From: a bacterium
GTDB taxonomy: Bacteria; Bacteroidota; Ignavibacteria; Kapaibacteriales; UBA7675
Direction of reading: 5' to 3'
Assembly: GCA_030430495.1 (NCBI GenBank)
Contig: JAUIKM010000002.1
Span: 186,001 to 250,000 of the forward strand
Length of the DNA: 64,000 nucleotides
The stretch's first letter is position 1. Every line of letters starts with the position of its first letter. Made by a program: the position numbers and the translations under genes. The notes beneath the pieces were generated by a model. It searched no databases, had not been told where the DNA came from, and saw nothing but the letters and a program-made list of their open reading frames with translations. This document shows, one piece after another, positions 1 through 63,498 of the stretch.

Positions 1-70
1 TACAGCGCCGTTCCGGCTCGTTTTTCTGAGCTTTTTGTTTGTCTTTGCGGGGAAAAAACGAGGCGTGGCG

Positions 71-334
71 TCAGGTGCGGCCCATGCCTTTGTAGAGGTC
101 AAAGCGCGCTTTGTAGGCCACCAGGTTGAAGTCGCTGTCGCGCAGCGTGCCGCCCGAGGGCAAAAAGTAAAAGGTGGAGGTTGTTCCGGTGACGGCGCGG
201 GAGATCACGCCGCGACCGTCCACGTAGAAGCGCAGGATTTTGTAGCCCAGGTGTTCGTCGGCCGTCTGCAGCTGCCGCTTCAGGTTGTCGTCGGAAAAGA
301 GGTGGAGGTCCGTATCGGTTTGTTGATTTGGCAT
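71..334 (-). CDS. Small hypothetical protein (87 aa)
   Basis: I do not recognise this protein. It is read from an ATG at 334 and runs MPNQQTDTDLHLF to a C-terminus KGMGRT. A longer in-frame extension upstream is possible, but its residues (arginine- and serine-rich) look like noncoding translation. The chosen start gives a compact 87-residue protein with no signal peptide, membrane segment or cysteines. It is divergent from secA. A copy of the dispersed GACAAACAA element lies 28 nt past the stop in the same orientation. It may be a real small gene or chance; no homologue is evident to me. Confidence 0.45.
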   Translation of the reverse strand: MPNQQTDTDLHLFSDDNLKRQLQTADEHLGYKILRFYVDGRGVISRAVTGTTSTFYFLPSGGTLRDSDFNLVAYKARFDLYKGMGRT

Positions 335-576
335 GGGAAAAGGATCCGAAGGAAAGAGCGCCGCGCTTTGGCCGCCGCGGCGAATAAGCGTAAATTCGGG
401 ACTGCCTGACTGCAAAGAAATCCACGCCTTATGGCGGCGTCCAATATCACTGCCGGACGTGTTCACGGCTAACGCGGCGAACCACAATTTATTTGGCGGC
501 GGACAGTCTTTGAACTCTCTTTTTCCGTCGCGCGCGCGGCGGGCCGAATTGCACTCACGAAGAGACACAAAATATT

Positions 577-3768
<3,192 letters not shown>

Positions 3769-58867: not shown

Positions 58868-60106
58868 ATGAAAATACTGCAAAAACTGCTATCTCAATCC
58901 AAACCCATTTTTGTTTGTCTCGCGGTTGTCATGCTCACGTGTCGTCCCCTGCCTGCCCAGTGGCGCAGCGTCGCGGGTTTCGGCGATCAATCCGTGGTCG
59001 CAATGCACAACGCCGGATCGACCGGGCTCTTTGTGTCATTGCGCAGCAAAACGGTGATGCGCTCGACCGACGGCGGCGACACCTGGCAACGGCGAGATTT
59101 CGGCATCGGTGAGTCGGAACAGATTTTCGGCTTCGCGGAGCACAATGACGCGTTGATTGCCGCAACGTACCGCGGCGCCGTGTTCCGCAGCACGGATGCG
59201 GGTGCGGTCTGGGCGCCTCTCTCGCGTCAATCCGATCAGCCGACCATCAATGTCATTTTCAGCCAGGGCCTTTACCTCTGGCTGGCGACGTCGAGTCGTT
59301 CTATACTGCGTTCCGTCGACGGGCTGCAGTGGTTCGCCGCACATGACGGTCTGCGCGACGGCGAGGTCGTGCTTGCGCTGGCCGTCCATGAAAATGAACT
59401 CTATGCCGGCACACCTGCCGGCGTAGCGCGCTGGAGCGAAAACACCGGACGTTGGCAGTACATCAGCGACGGCCTGACAGGACGCCGCATTTACAGCCTG
59501 CAGAGCGCTGGAGACGAACTGTTCGCAGGCAGCGATGCCGACGGCATATACGTCCGCACTCCGGATCTGTCCTTCTGGCAAAAACGCAGTACGGGATTCA
59601 GCGGCGGTTCAGCCGTGGCCGATATGACGTTCCAGAGCGGCAGTGTTGCCGCTGCCACACTTGGCGGTGAGGTAGTCGTCTGGGAGCCCTGGCTGCGGAG
59701 CTGGCACGACATTGGAGACGGACTGCCGCTCAACCTGCAGCCGGCCGTACTTATGTCCGTCGGCACGACGCTTTTTGTCGGTGGTCTCGGCAATGGTTTG
59801 TACAGTCGCGATCTTCAGAACGTCGTGCTCGACGTCTCCGAGTCCACATACGCTGCGGCGGCCGACCTGCGAATCCGGAACGTCGACGGTCGCTTGACGA
59901 TCGTCAACGACAGCGAGTCGGGGCGGAACCTCGAGTTGGAAGTCTTCAGTCTGCGTGGAGTCCGCGTCGCCGGCGATCAGTTACAGCTCACTGCGGGAGA
60001 ATCGAAGGTGCTCGAGTTGCCGCGCCGCCTGCCCGCCGGTGTCTATGCGGTCCGCCTGCGCGGTGCGGCGGCAAACCTGTCCGTCGGCATTGTGATCTCG
60101 CCCTGA
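58868..60106 (+). CDS. Secreted beta-propeller protein with T9SS-like tail
   Basis: 412 aa. A signal peptide ends near RPLPAQ. Repeats of about 45 residues then follow with BNR/sialidase-type blades (MRSTDGGDTWQRR, FRSTDAGAVWAPL, LRSVDGLQWFAAH, VRTPDLSFWQKRS). The last 80 residues (LRIRNVDGRLTIVND to LPAGVYAVRLRG) resemble a type A T9SS sorting domain, though it lacks the usual PNP start. Probably exported to the surface; function unknown. A dispersed-element core (58911-58919) lies in the signal-peptide codons. Confidence 0.75.
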   Translation: MKILQKLLSQSKPIFVCLAVVMLTCRPLPAQWRSVAGFGDQSVVAMHNAGSTGLFVSLRSKTVMRSTDGGDTWQRRDFGIGESEQIFGFAEHNDALIAATYRGAVFRSTDAGAVWAPLSRQSDQPTINVIFSQGLYLWLATSSRSILRSVDGLQWFAAHDGLRDGEVVLALAVHENELYAGTPAGVARWSENTGRWQYISDGLTGRRIYSLQSAGDELFAGSDADGIYVRTPDLSFWQKRSTGFSGGSAVADMTFQSGSVAAATLGGEVVVWEPWLRSWHDIGDGLPLNLQPAVLMSVGTTLFVGGLGNGLYSRDLQNVVLDVSESTYAAAADLRIRNVDGRLTIVNDSESGRNLELEVFSLRGVRVAGDQLQLTAGESKVLELPRRLPAGVYAVRLRGAAANLSVGIVISP

Positions 60107-60757: not shown

Positions 60758-61447
60758 TCAGTCGGCCGGGACAATCGCCGTCATTGTGAATTCGAGGTCC
60801 AGGTCGGTTGACGGCAGGATCTGTTGCGTCGTCGTCGTCAGGCTGAACTCAATGCGGCGCGTGGCCGGATTCCAGACAGCTCTCAGCTCGCACAGCTCCG
60901 CCGGCGCAGCGCCGGAAGGGGTAATGTAGCTCTGATCCGGCGGAGAAATAATGCCAAACTCAAAACCGGCGGCGCGGTCGTTCGCGATGCGCGGATCGGC
61001 GCTCAGCACAATCGGATTTCCATTGGCCGGAACGGCTTTGCAGGAAAACTCCAACCCGTTCAGCGCCCAGTCTTCGGGATTGCCGGGGCGTTCCAGGCCG
61101 CTGGCGCCGATGTCCGGCGTGCGCCGCGCAGCCATTTCAATGTCGAGGACCGGCGGCTCCGGCGCGGAGTCGAAAATGATCTTCAGCTCGATGTCGTTGA
61201 AGTTTTGATTCTTGTCCAGACTCAGGCCGACCATTTCAGCCTGAAATGACTCCACGTCGTTTTCATCGAGTGTAAAGGTGCTCAGGTCGCGGATGTCGCG
61301 TGCGTCGGTGAGGTTGGGTGCGCTGGCGTCGTCACATCCGTTCAGCCCGCCGACAAACAAAAAAGCGCACAGAAAAAAAACGCACGCGGTTGCGTGCGTT
61401 TTGCGAGGTGAGCCTGCAGGGCCGATGTTTGAAACTTGCGACGTCAT
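60758..61447 (-). CDS. Hypothetical lipoprotein
   Basis: 229 aa with a signal sequence VFFLCAFLFVGGLNGC whose lipobox cysteine would be lipidated. The mature part starts DDASAPNLTDARDIRD and looks beta-rich (FNDIELKIIFDSAPEPPVLDIEMA, RIEFSLTTTTQQILP). I recognise no family. The signal-peptide codons contain a perfect terminator hairpin (61374-61402) and a dispersed-element core (61352-61360). It follows the anti-sigma/barrel gene by 28 nt. Confidence 0.7.
   Translation of the reverse strand: MTSQVSNIGPAGSPRKTHATACVFFLCAFLFVGGLNGCDDASAPNLTDARDIRDLSTFTLDENDVESFQAEMVGLSLDKNQNFNDIELKIIFDSAPEPPVLDIEMAARRTPDIGASGLERPGNPEDWALNGLEFSCKAVPANGNPIVLSADPRIANDRAAGFEFGIISPPDQSYITPSGAAPAELCELRAVWNPATRRIEFSLTTTTQQILPSTDLDLEFTMTAIVPAD
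61374..61402 (-). terminator. Intrinsic terminator inside lipoprotein codons 16-25
   Basis: On the minus strand AAAACGCACGC-AACC-GCGTGCGTTTT is a perfect 11-bp stem with a 4-nt loop, running into a total of eight T. It should stop transcripts coming from the upstream anti-sigma/barrel gene unless translation or a factor prevents it. Confidence 0.75.
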
Positions 61448-61475: not shown

Positions 61476-62807
61476 TTAGTATACGGCGTACGAAAATCCA
61501 AGAGTAAAGCCGCGTTTCAGCGAGCTGTTGCGGCCGCCGGGAATCGAATACATCAGTTCGGAGTAATGCCAGGCGGCGTCCAGTTCAACCAGGTTGAACA
61601 GGCGGGTCGACACGCCGGCGGAAATGCGTCCAAGGAATGCGTCGGTCGTTCCGTACCCCAACTGCACTTCGGCATAGGGCGCGGTTGCGTCAAACAGACT
61701 GAAATCGGCGGGGCGGTAGCGTCCCGTCACGCCAACCCAGTCGATGATCGGGTTCTGGCGGAATTCCAGCAGGCGGTTGTCTTCATTGCGGAAGCGGAAA
61801 ACTTGTCCGAATTGCTCGTGGCCGTAGGCCAGACCAAGCGACCAGTCTTCGTCCAGCGCGTACATGAGGTCAATCGAAACATTTTCGCTCGATTGTGAAT
61901 TGCTCAGCGCCGCGTTGTCCGTGTTGAGCGTCGCATCGGGGCTGGAAACGCCGCCGATGTAGTTGACGCGCATCTTGAAGCGGCGTGCGTCCGGCAGGAA
62001 GACCGCCGGAAAATCAGCGGCCTGGAAATCGCCTACCGTAGGAACGGCGCGACTGCCGTGCGGCGCGCCCAGATGCGGCAGGGAGACTGCCAGCAGAGCG
62101 CCTTTGCTCAGGCTTTCCGCTGCGAAGCTTTCCGACTCGTCGAAACTGGTCTGAGCGTTGGCCAGTTCTTGCAGACTGATCGTTTCATTCTGCCCCTCGC
62201 CGCTTGTAGTGATCGCGGCGGTAGGCGCATTGTCGTAAATGGCGCCATCCACAGAGCCTGTATGCAGGCCGGCCAGTGCCGAACCGGCGGTTGTCATGCC
62301 GGTCTCCGAGGCTCCGGCGGCGCGTTGAATAGTACCATCGACGGGAACGTCCATATCCAAGGTTCTTGCAGGGGTTTTGGATACAATGTCGGACGCCGTG
62401 GACGTCAACGCGCCGCCGGTATCGTCATCCATCATAAGAAGAGTGACGAGTGTAACCACAACGGCAAGCGCCGCCGTCAGTCCATAGCGAACCAACGAGC
62501 TTTGCATTACCGAGTCCGCTACTGTGGCAGCCGAATTGGCCGGAGGCGGGATGGGAGTGGGAACGGACGCAACAGGCGTGGCCATTCCCAATTTTTCAAA
62601 TACGGCGCTCGTGGCCGCGGCAGGCACCGTCAGCTTGCCGCCGTAGTATTTCAGTGAGGACCGAATGTTCTGCTGTTCGTTGAATCGGCGGCGCAGGTCG
62701 GGATTGCGCCCCAATTCTTCGAATAAGGCGCTCTCCTGCTCGGGATCGATGACGCCGTCAAGGTAGCCGTGCATCAGGTCTTCAGGAGGCAAGTAGCCTT
62801 GGTCCAT
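61476..62807 (-). CDS. Predicted dual-membrane-spanning anti-sigma factor with C-terminal outer-membrane barrel
   Basis: 443 aa. Residues 1-75 form an acidic helical head (PEDLMHGYLDGVIDPEQESALFEELGRNPDLRRRF) like anti-sigma domains. A proline linker and one membrane helix (about 107-126) follow, then about 150 low-complexity residues. From about 276 come eight amphipathic strands (FKMRVNYIGGVSS, VSIDLMYALDEDWSLGLAYG, DWVGVTGRYRP, YAEVQLGYGTTD, LVELDAAWHYSE) ending in the aromatic GFSYAVY of outer-membrane barrels. The ECF sigma gene is 13 nt upstream. The architecture matches the dual-membrane-spanning anti-sigma class described in Bacteroides. Confidence 0.85.
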   Translation of the reverse strand: MDQGYLPPEDLMHGYLDGVIDPEQESALFEELGRNPDLRRRFNEQQNIRSSLKYYGGKLTVPAAATSAVFEKLGMATPVASVPTPIPPPANSAATVADSVMQSSLVRYGLTAALAVVVTLVTLLMMDDDTGGALTSTASDIVSKTPARTLDMDVPVDGTIQRAAGASETGMTTAGSALAGLHTGSVDGAIYDNAPTAAITTSGEGQNETISLQELANAQTSFDESESFAAESLSKGALLAVSLPHLGAPHGSRAVPTVGDFQAADFPAVFLPDARRFKMRVNYIGGVSSPDATLNTDNAALSNSQSSENVSIDLMYALDEDWSLGLAYGHEQFGQVFRFRNEDNRLLEFRQNPIIDWVGVTGRYRPADFSLFDATAPYAEVQLGYGTTDAFLGRISAGVSTRLFNLVELDAAWHYSELMYSIPGGRNSSLKRGFTLGFSYAVY

Positions 62808-62820
62808 GGTGTTTTTGCCG

Positions 62821-63498
62821 TTATTTAAGATTAGACAACTCCGATAAATAGGGCGACAGGATCTCGCGAAGTTTATCCTTGGCGCGCCACACGCGGTTGC
62901 GCAGCGCCGGAATCGAATCTTCGGTTATCTCCGCCATCTCGGCATAGTTCATGCCGTAGATTTCCCGCAGGATCAATGCCTCGCGGTACTCGTCTTCCAG
63001 CAGGTCGATCGACGTTTGCAACAGCTTGAGTAGCTCTTTATTCTCGTAGCTGTCGTCGAAAGACAGGAACTGGATCTCATCGAATTCAATCGTGACTTTG
63101 CTGTCGCGCTTGTGATTCAGACACAAATTGCGCGCGATGCGAAACAGATACCCGGGTACATTGGCGACCGTCTGGCCTTTGACCGCACTGTTGTAGAACT
63201 TGACGAAGGTGTCCTGGAACACGTCGTTCGCTTCTTCGGCATGTCCCAGCATCGTCATGCAGTAACCGTAGATCCGGTGTGAGTAGCGCGAGTACAACTC
63301 CGCAAAAGCCAATTCGGCTTCGCTGCCGCCCGCATTCAGGCAGGTGTACAAGCGCCCATCGTCCAGATCTCCGTATCGGGTTGGTTTCGCCATCCGTTTC
63401 CGCTTTCCATGATCCGGCGCAACGACCACACGTGAGAGCGCATCGCGCTCCTGCGTCGACGTTGTTGTTTCAGATCCTTTGGAGAGCCGGTCTTTCAT
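62821..63498 (-). CDS. ECF-type RNA polymerase sigma factor
   Basis: 225 aa. Region 2 (FAELYSRYSHRIYGYCMTML, EANDVFQDTFVKFYN, VPGYLFRIARNLCLNHKR) and region 4 (LLEDEYREALILREIYGMNYAEMAEI followed by PALRNRVWRAKDKLREIL) are clear. The first 35 residues precede region 2 and are rich in basic residues, so an ATG at 63393 (MAKPTRYGDLDD) is an alternative start. Directly upstream of the predicted anti-sigma/barrel gene on the same strand, presumably its regulated partner. Confidence 0.92.
   Translation of the reverse strand: MKDRLSKGSETTTSTQERDALSRVVVAPDHGKRKRMAKPTRYGDLDDGRLYTCLNAGGSEAELAFAELYSRYSHRIYGYCMTMLGHAEEANDVFQDTFVKFYNSAVKGQTVANVPGYLFRIARNLCLNHKRDSKVTIEFDEIQFLSFDDSYENKELLKLLQTSIDLLEDEYREALILREIYGMNYAEMAEITEDSIPALRNRVWRAKDKLREILSPYLSELSNLK

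Follow-up and report, generated by a model that had tools for sequence, protein, structure and literature searches.

A candidate envelope-sensing cassette of ECF sigma factor, predicted two-membrane anti-sigma factor and lipoprotein recurs across the order Kapaibacteriales

We found that, in the 64,000-nucleotide stretch of a Kapaibacteriales genome analysed here (the window), three consecutive genes probably constitute an envelope-sensing cassette, composed of an ECF sigma factor, an anti-sigma factor predicted to span both membranes and an outer-membrane lipoprotein, a reading to which we assign a probability of about 0.7. The basis is in silico and consists of the gene order, the domain plan, the barrel fold, the conservation, the lipoprotein motif and an ECF-type promoter present in most operons, whereas the window operon itself counts against it in lacking the shared promoter, in carrying a weak form of the motif and in having a hairpin before the lipoprotein. 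In the proposed mechanism, the head of the anti-sigma factor would keep the sigma factor bound at the inner membrane, and the chain would cross the envelope by a single transmembrane helix and a long disordered tether to end in an 8-strand barrel seated in the outer membrane. Through a conserved segment near its lipid anchor, the lipoprotein probably docks on the barrel or next to it. An outer-membrane or external signal, reported by the variable domain of the lipoprotein or by the barrel's own state, would trigger cutting first of the tether and subsequently of the membrane helix, and the freed sigma factor would transcribe its own operon and target genes. We infer outer-membrane sensing, inhibition of the sigma factor and insertion in both membranes, as well as the sensor role of the lipoprotein. 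M50 intramembrane proteases are present in the source genome, but they are also present in 14 of 14 control genomes and, being near universal, say little for the mechanism.

The sigma factor gene (62821-63498, minus strand; 225 aa, with an alternative possible start ATG at 63393) encodes a protein with Pfam matches to Sigma70_r2 (E=8.6e-14) and r4_2 (E=1.3e-8) and an NCBIfam match to sigma70-ECF TIGR02937 above cut-off, the more specific models shown being below cut-off. As the original prediction had it, an open reading frame lies directly behind, separated by 13 bases, and its translation, structure model and family profile identify a two-membrane anti-sigma-like protein (61476-62807, minus strand; 443 aa, ending in SYAVY). 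The lipoprotein gene that was expected downstream is also in place as the third gene of the cassette (60758-61447, minus strand; 229 aa), with the lipobox LNG-C and the lipid cysteine codon at 61334-61336. The three genes are flanked by the riboflavin synthase gene and rplS (ribosomal protein L19), names that were assigned by reading the sequence. Near rplS, a secreted repeat protein with the look of a BNR/propeller protein is encoded on the plus strand (58868-60106), and the syntenic locus (L050) of the nearest named relative, Candidatus Kapaibacterium sp. IP29b_bin.46, encodes a similar protein on the far side of rplS.

Upon modelling the 443-aa protein with AlphaFold2, using an alignment with 36 homologues, we recovered the order of head, helix, tether and barrel that had been read from the sequence, all four parts being encoded on the minus strand. 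The head (residues 8-73; 62589-62786) is helical, with four helices in the model and a pLDDT of ~95 to residue 50 and ~75-80 to residue 73, and is presumed to be the sigma-binding domain. It is followed by a single inner-membrane helix (residues 105-126; 62430-62495), indicated by its hydropathy (2.17 over 19 residues from about 107), by its flanking charge (0 before, -4 after) and by a helix at low pLDDT in the model, and by a low-complexity periplasmic tether (residues 127-276; 61980-62429), of which residues 128-272 have a pLDDT <50 and are disordered. The C-terminal part (residues 277-443; 61479-61979) is a predicted 8-strand outer-membrane barrel with an aromatic last residue. Neither an open barrel nor a cleavable signal peptide at residues 107-126, the two outcomes that the original prediction had named as fatal to it, was found, given the model, the outer-membrane barrels among the Foldseek matches and the hydropathy alternation: residues 277-442 form a closed barrel at a pLDDT of about 93-98 over most of its length, and the helix is not a cleavable signal peptide because 105 residues, including a folded head, precede it at the N terminus. 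In a Foldseek comparison with the PDB, the best solved matches were outer-membrane barrels and the closest by size were 8-strand ones, namely the designed barrel 6x9z (E=3e-5, target TM 0.71), NspA (0.58), OmpX (0.55-0.59), Ail and OmpA. In sequence searches with the 443-aa protein, an NCBIfam antisigma match at residues 13-159 was weak and below cut-off (E=1.6e-4), a PDB sequence search gave matches confined to the tether and helix region that probably reflect low complexity, and the head has neither cysteines nor a zf-HC2 match and thus no zinc motif of the ZAS class I type, zf-HC2 being weakly matched in 2 of the 36 homologues. A Pfam search of the protein matched no family, including FecR and the TonB-receptor domain.

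Across 120 family members, the transmembrane segment has a median hydropathy of 1.96, the net charge falls from the head side of the helix to the tether side in 105 proteins, the tether has a median length of 133 aa (range 77-262) with essentially no cysteine, and the chain ends in F, L or Y in 108. This pattern of charge, tether and C-terminal residue fits a head placed inside and a barrel placed in the outer membrane. Additionally, sigma distances track those of the head (rho 0.44, with a Mantel null maximum of 0.15) more closely than those of the barrel (0.23), as expected if the head binds the sigma factor. In the syntenic locus of the nearest named relative, identity is 76% for the sigma factor, 46% for the head, 26% for the tether, 40% for the barrel and 28% for the lipoprotein; by this measure, the putatively outward parts are the ones that change faster.

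Two other readings of the 443-aa protein can be weighed against these features. One takes the C-terminal domain for a soluble beta-barrel sensor of the lipocalin type located in the periplasm, so that only the inner membrane would be spanned, and the lack of any Pfam barrel family match to the protein is in line with this. We regard it as very improbable, since the fold matches are outer-membrane barrels, the hydrophobic residues of the strands alternate as lipid-facing ones do (more strongly than in all of 500 shuffles), the chain ends in an aromatic residue, and OMP_b-brl is matched in 3 of the 36 homologues. The other is that the polypeptide is processed, the barrel being set free as a separate outer-membrane protein and an ordinary membrane anti-sigma factor being left behind, with no single spanning chain at steady state. 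A long, disordered and poorly conserved tether would suit such processing, as would the existence of a separate barrel with an apparent signal peptide of its own, but head, tether and barrel remain fused in nearly all of ~126 homologues, from the order and two other families, and the tether is never shorter than 77 residues, which makes processing an unlikely account.

When extending the analysis to the whole source genome, we found nine pairs of sigma factor and two-membrane anti-sigma factor, the window pair included, of which six more are whole cassettes and two more are diverged pairs without the lipoprotein (L017, 1480-3123, and L020, 772-2217, on C33 and C40). The barrel region of the L017 protein carries a glycine- and acid-rich insertion. 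The same genome also encodes a head-less barrel with an apparent signal peptide beside a lipoprotein starting CDSPTDIEANR (L015, 1186-1983 and 2185-2964, on C25); the 10 kb that were read there (wider view L164) contain no sigma gene. The barrels of L060 and L112 were considered as further head-less cases and dropped, as both stop close to where the fetched locus itself ends. In L019, a lipoprotein with a long DDAD repeat (1-633, minus strand) lies on the opposite strand, upstream of another sigma/anti-sigma-like pair, the second protein of which has a TPR-like region at its end.

Within the order, profile matches were found in 120 of 123 genomes, in most of them several times. Such an open reading frame directly follows 135 of the 136 sigma open reading frames in the fetched loci, a figure of linkage rather than an unbiased rate because a match to either gene of the pair was what led to a locus being fetched, and 126 of the 135 match the profile nearly end to end. 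An adjoining sigma gene is present for 120 of these 126 homologues, the other six being mostly split, overlapping or at locus edges. Since the whole gene pair is conserved across the order, chance is excluded. Two further families of the class also have sigma-anti-sigma operons of the same plan, and several operons outside the order have a lipoprotein-like gene downstream (L157, L159-L163); most other matches in a 395-genome sample of the phylum comprise the head only. Relatives were scanned with the sigma alignment, the anti-sigma profile being too diverged for the contig search. Three records, titled Ectothiorhodospiraceae and Desulfobulbaceae (L078, L087, L092), contain typical operons of the order and are probably misnamed metagenome bins. 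The original prediction had presented this case as extending a Bacteroides design to a different, flagellated lineage. Three flagellin matches in the source genome bear out the flagellated character, and the extension itself holds, although not as a single case, the order being full of such operons; furthermore, because NCBI places Kapaibacterium inside Bacteroidota, in the class Eximiradiia, it reaches a distant class rather than a clearly new phylum.

Upon examining the regions upstream of the sigma genes, we observed the dyad TAAC-N17-GTTA in 32 of 120 by an untrained count, against 0.0 expected. A trained model found TGTAAC-N17-GTTA(TT) in 86 of 120, 76 of them at 17-base spacing, against about 3.5 in shuffles; this count errs on the high side, as it comes from a model fitted to those very sequences, unlike the untrained one. 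The shared ECF-type promoter (TGTAAC-N17-GTTATT; loci L021-L155) suggests that the operons may be autoregulated. It is absent from the window operon (score 0.7) and from the orthologue of that operon. A regulon scan with the promoter model over 800 kb of one relative yielded 12 versus 5 sites at score >=16, little above chance, and is not relied on here. Between the anti-sigma and lipoprotein genes of the window, within the signal-peptide codons of the latter, lies a terminator-like hairpin (61377-61402, minus strand) with an 11-bp stem and a T run (fold z=-3.05), which may lower lipoprotein expression. Comparable hairpins occur in only 5 of 93 operons.

The third gene of the cassette is a lipoprotein gene in about 85% of operons. 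An automatic rule marks a downstream lipoprotein in 96 of 121 operons, compared with 69 of 305 background genes under the same permissive rule (P=1.7e-27), and about nine operons missed by it (L023, L024, L042, L050, L052, L064, L066, L082, L111) were added, having been found by an earlier form of the rule or by eye. Under a stricter rule, 26 of 600 genes in 800 kb of one relative count as lipoproteins. The first ~11 residues from the lipid cysteine follow the consensus C-[TEK]-S-P-L-D-[IVL]-D-T-P-R, and the motif is found in 55 of 97 linked lipoproteins, against 0 of 26 unlinked ones (P=1.5e-8) and about 4 per set of shuffles, the patterns having been written post hoc, after inspection of the same sequences. 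Its absence from the unlinked lipoproteins, drawn from one control genome, makes a sorting signal common to all lipoproteins of the lineage unlikely. The domains behind the motif vary and include DUF4397, VWA, ASH/HYDIN Ig-like, PD40 propeller, TIG and META. One lipoprotein family that was modelled shows a folded all-beta domain (pLDDT 91), for which no solved relative was significant, the best being avidin-like at E=0.04. In the window lipoprotein the motif is present in a weak form only, CDDASAPNLTD.

These lipoproteins could instead be a mere output of the sigma factor rather than a sensor or partner, with the barrel alone sensing outer-membrane stress. In Phocaeicola, NigD surface lipoproteins depend on EcfO, one of them having a locus tag next to the sigma/anti-sigma pair (PMC13114119), and in the three-gene dma2 operon of Bacteroides thetaiotaomicron (das2, dma2, BT_1557) the genes next to dma2 are strongly induced yet dispensable for vesiculation (PMC13088901). 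Several operons here also have no lipoprotein in third place, and lipoprotein type did not co-vary significantly with the barrel beyond its co-variation with sigma factor and head. We nevertheless consider this a possibility of less than even odds: a lipid-proximal motif common to lipoproteins with unrelated domains, and found in none of 26 unlinked ones, counts against a mere output, as does the head-less barrel of the source genome that also adjoins a motif-bearing lipoprotein. Returning to the lipoprotein as a partner of the barrel, we tentatively propose, as an idea that may well prove wrong, a modular platform in which a standard barrel would dock lipoproteins through one lipid-proximal motif while their sensor domains (VWA, Ig-like, propeller, DUF4397) are interchangeable. 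If so, one genome could run many parallel surface-to-gene switches.

The signal sensed by two-membrane anti-sigma factors is an open question in Bacteroides. With its many natural variants, its conserved third component and a short mutable motif, the order makes signal reception by the barrel directly testable. Overall, our findings suggest that an arrangement described in gut Bacteroidota serves as a major mode of signalling in a distant lineage that is largely uncultured and whose member studied here is flagellated.

The precedent in Bacteroides that the original prediction had named is supported by the literature (PMC13088901, PMC9308784, PMC13114119). Dma1 and Dma2 of B. thetaiotaomicron, encoded beside ECF21 sigma genes, have the same four-part plan as the protein of the order, with an anti-sigma head (a presumed one in the order), one transmembrane helix, a long disordered tether and a C-terminal barrel, and the Dma family was described as confined to Bacteroidota (PMC13088901). 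In contrast, three Dma proteins are described in B. thetaiotaomicron compared with nine pairs in the source genome, the lineage here belongs to the class Eximiradiia, and the conserved third gene of the cassettes of the order encodes a lipoprotein, the lipid-proximal motif being shared. The Phocaeicola vulgatus pair later named EcfO-Reo, also considered in Bacteroides fragilis, likewise has a sigma factor followed by an anti-sigma factor predicted to span the periplasm with an outer-membrane barrel; an envelope-damaging toxin induces the pair (PMC9308784), which links it to envelope stress, and surface NigD lipoproteins belong to its regulon (PMC13114119). Mutation or loss of the Bacteroides and Phocaeicola counterparts activates the cognate sigma factor and surface-lipoprotein genes (PMC13088901, PMC9308784, PMC13114119). 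Unlike in that system, the NigD family is missing from the source genome (no NigD_N, PF12667, match, with a positive Bacteroides control), and here the lipoprotein gene follows the anti-sigma gene, its product bearing a motif shared across the order. The likeness to both Dma and EcfO-Reo is drawn from the domain order rather than from sequence comparison. In FecI-FecR, an outer-membrane event similarly reaches an ECF sigma factor via a membrane anti-sigma factor, but the barrel there is a separate TonB-dependent receptor, whereas here barrel and anti-sigma factor form one chain. Lipoproteins of the RcsF type, paired with a barrel outer-membrane protein as an envelope sensor, offer a resemblance only, and their signalling route differs from that of the cassette. 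A literature search returned no report of a lipoprotein partner of this kind, which is weak evidence of absence. The architecture is therefore already known, and what is new is the lineage, the number per genome and the motif-bearing lipoprotein.
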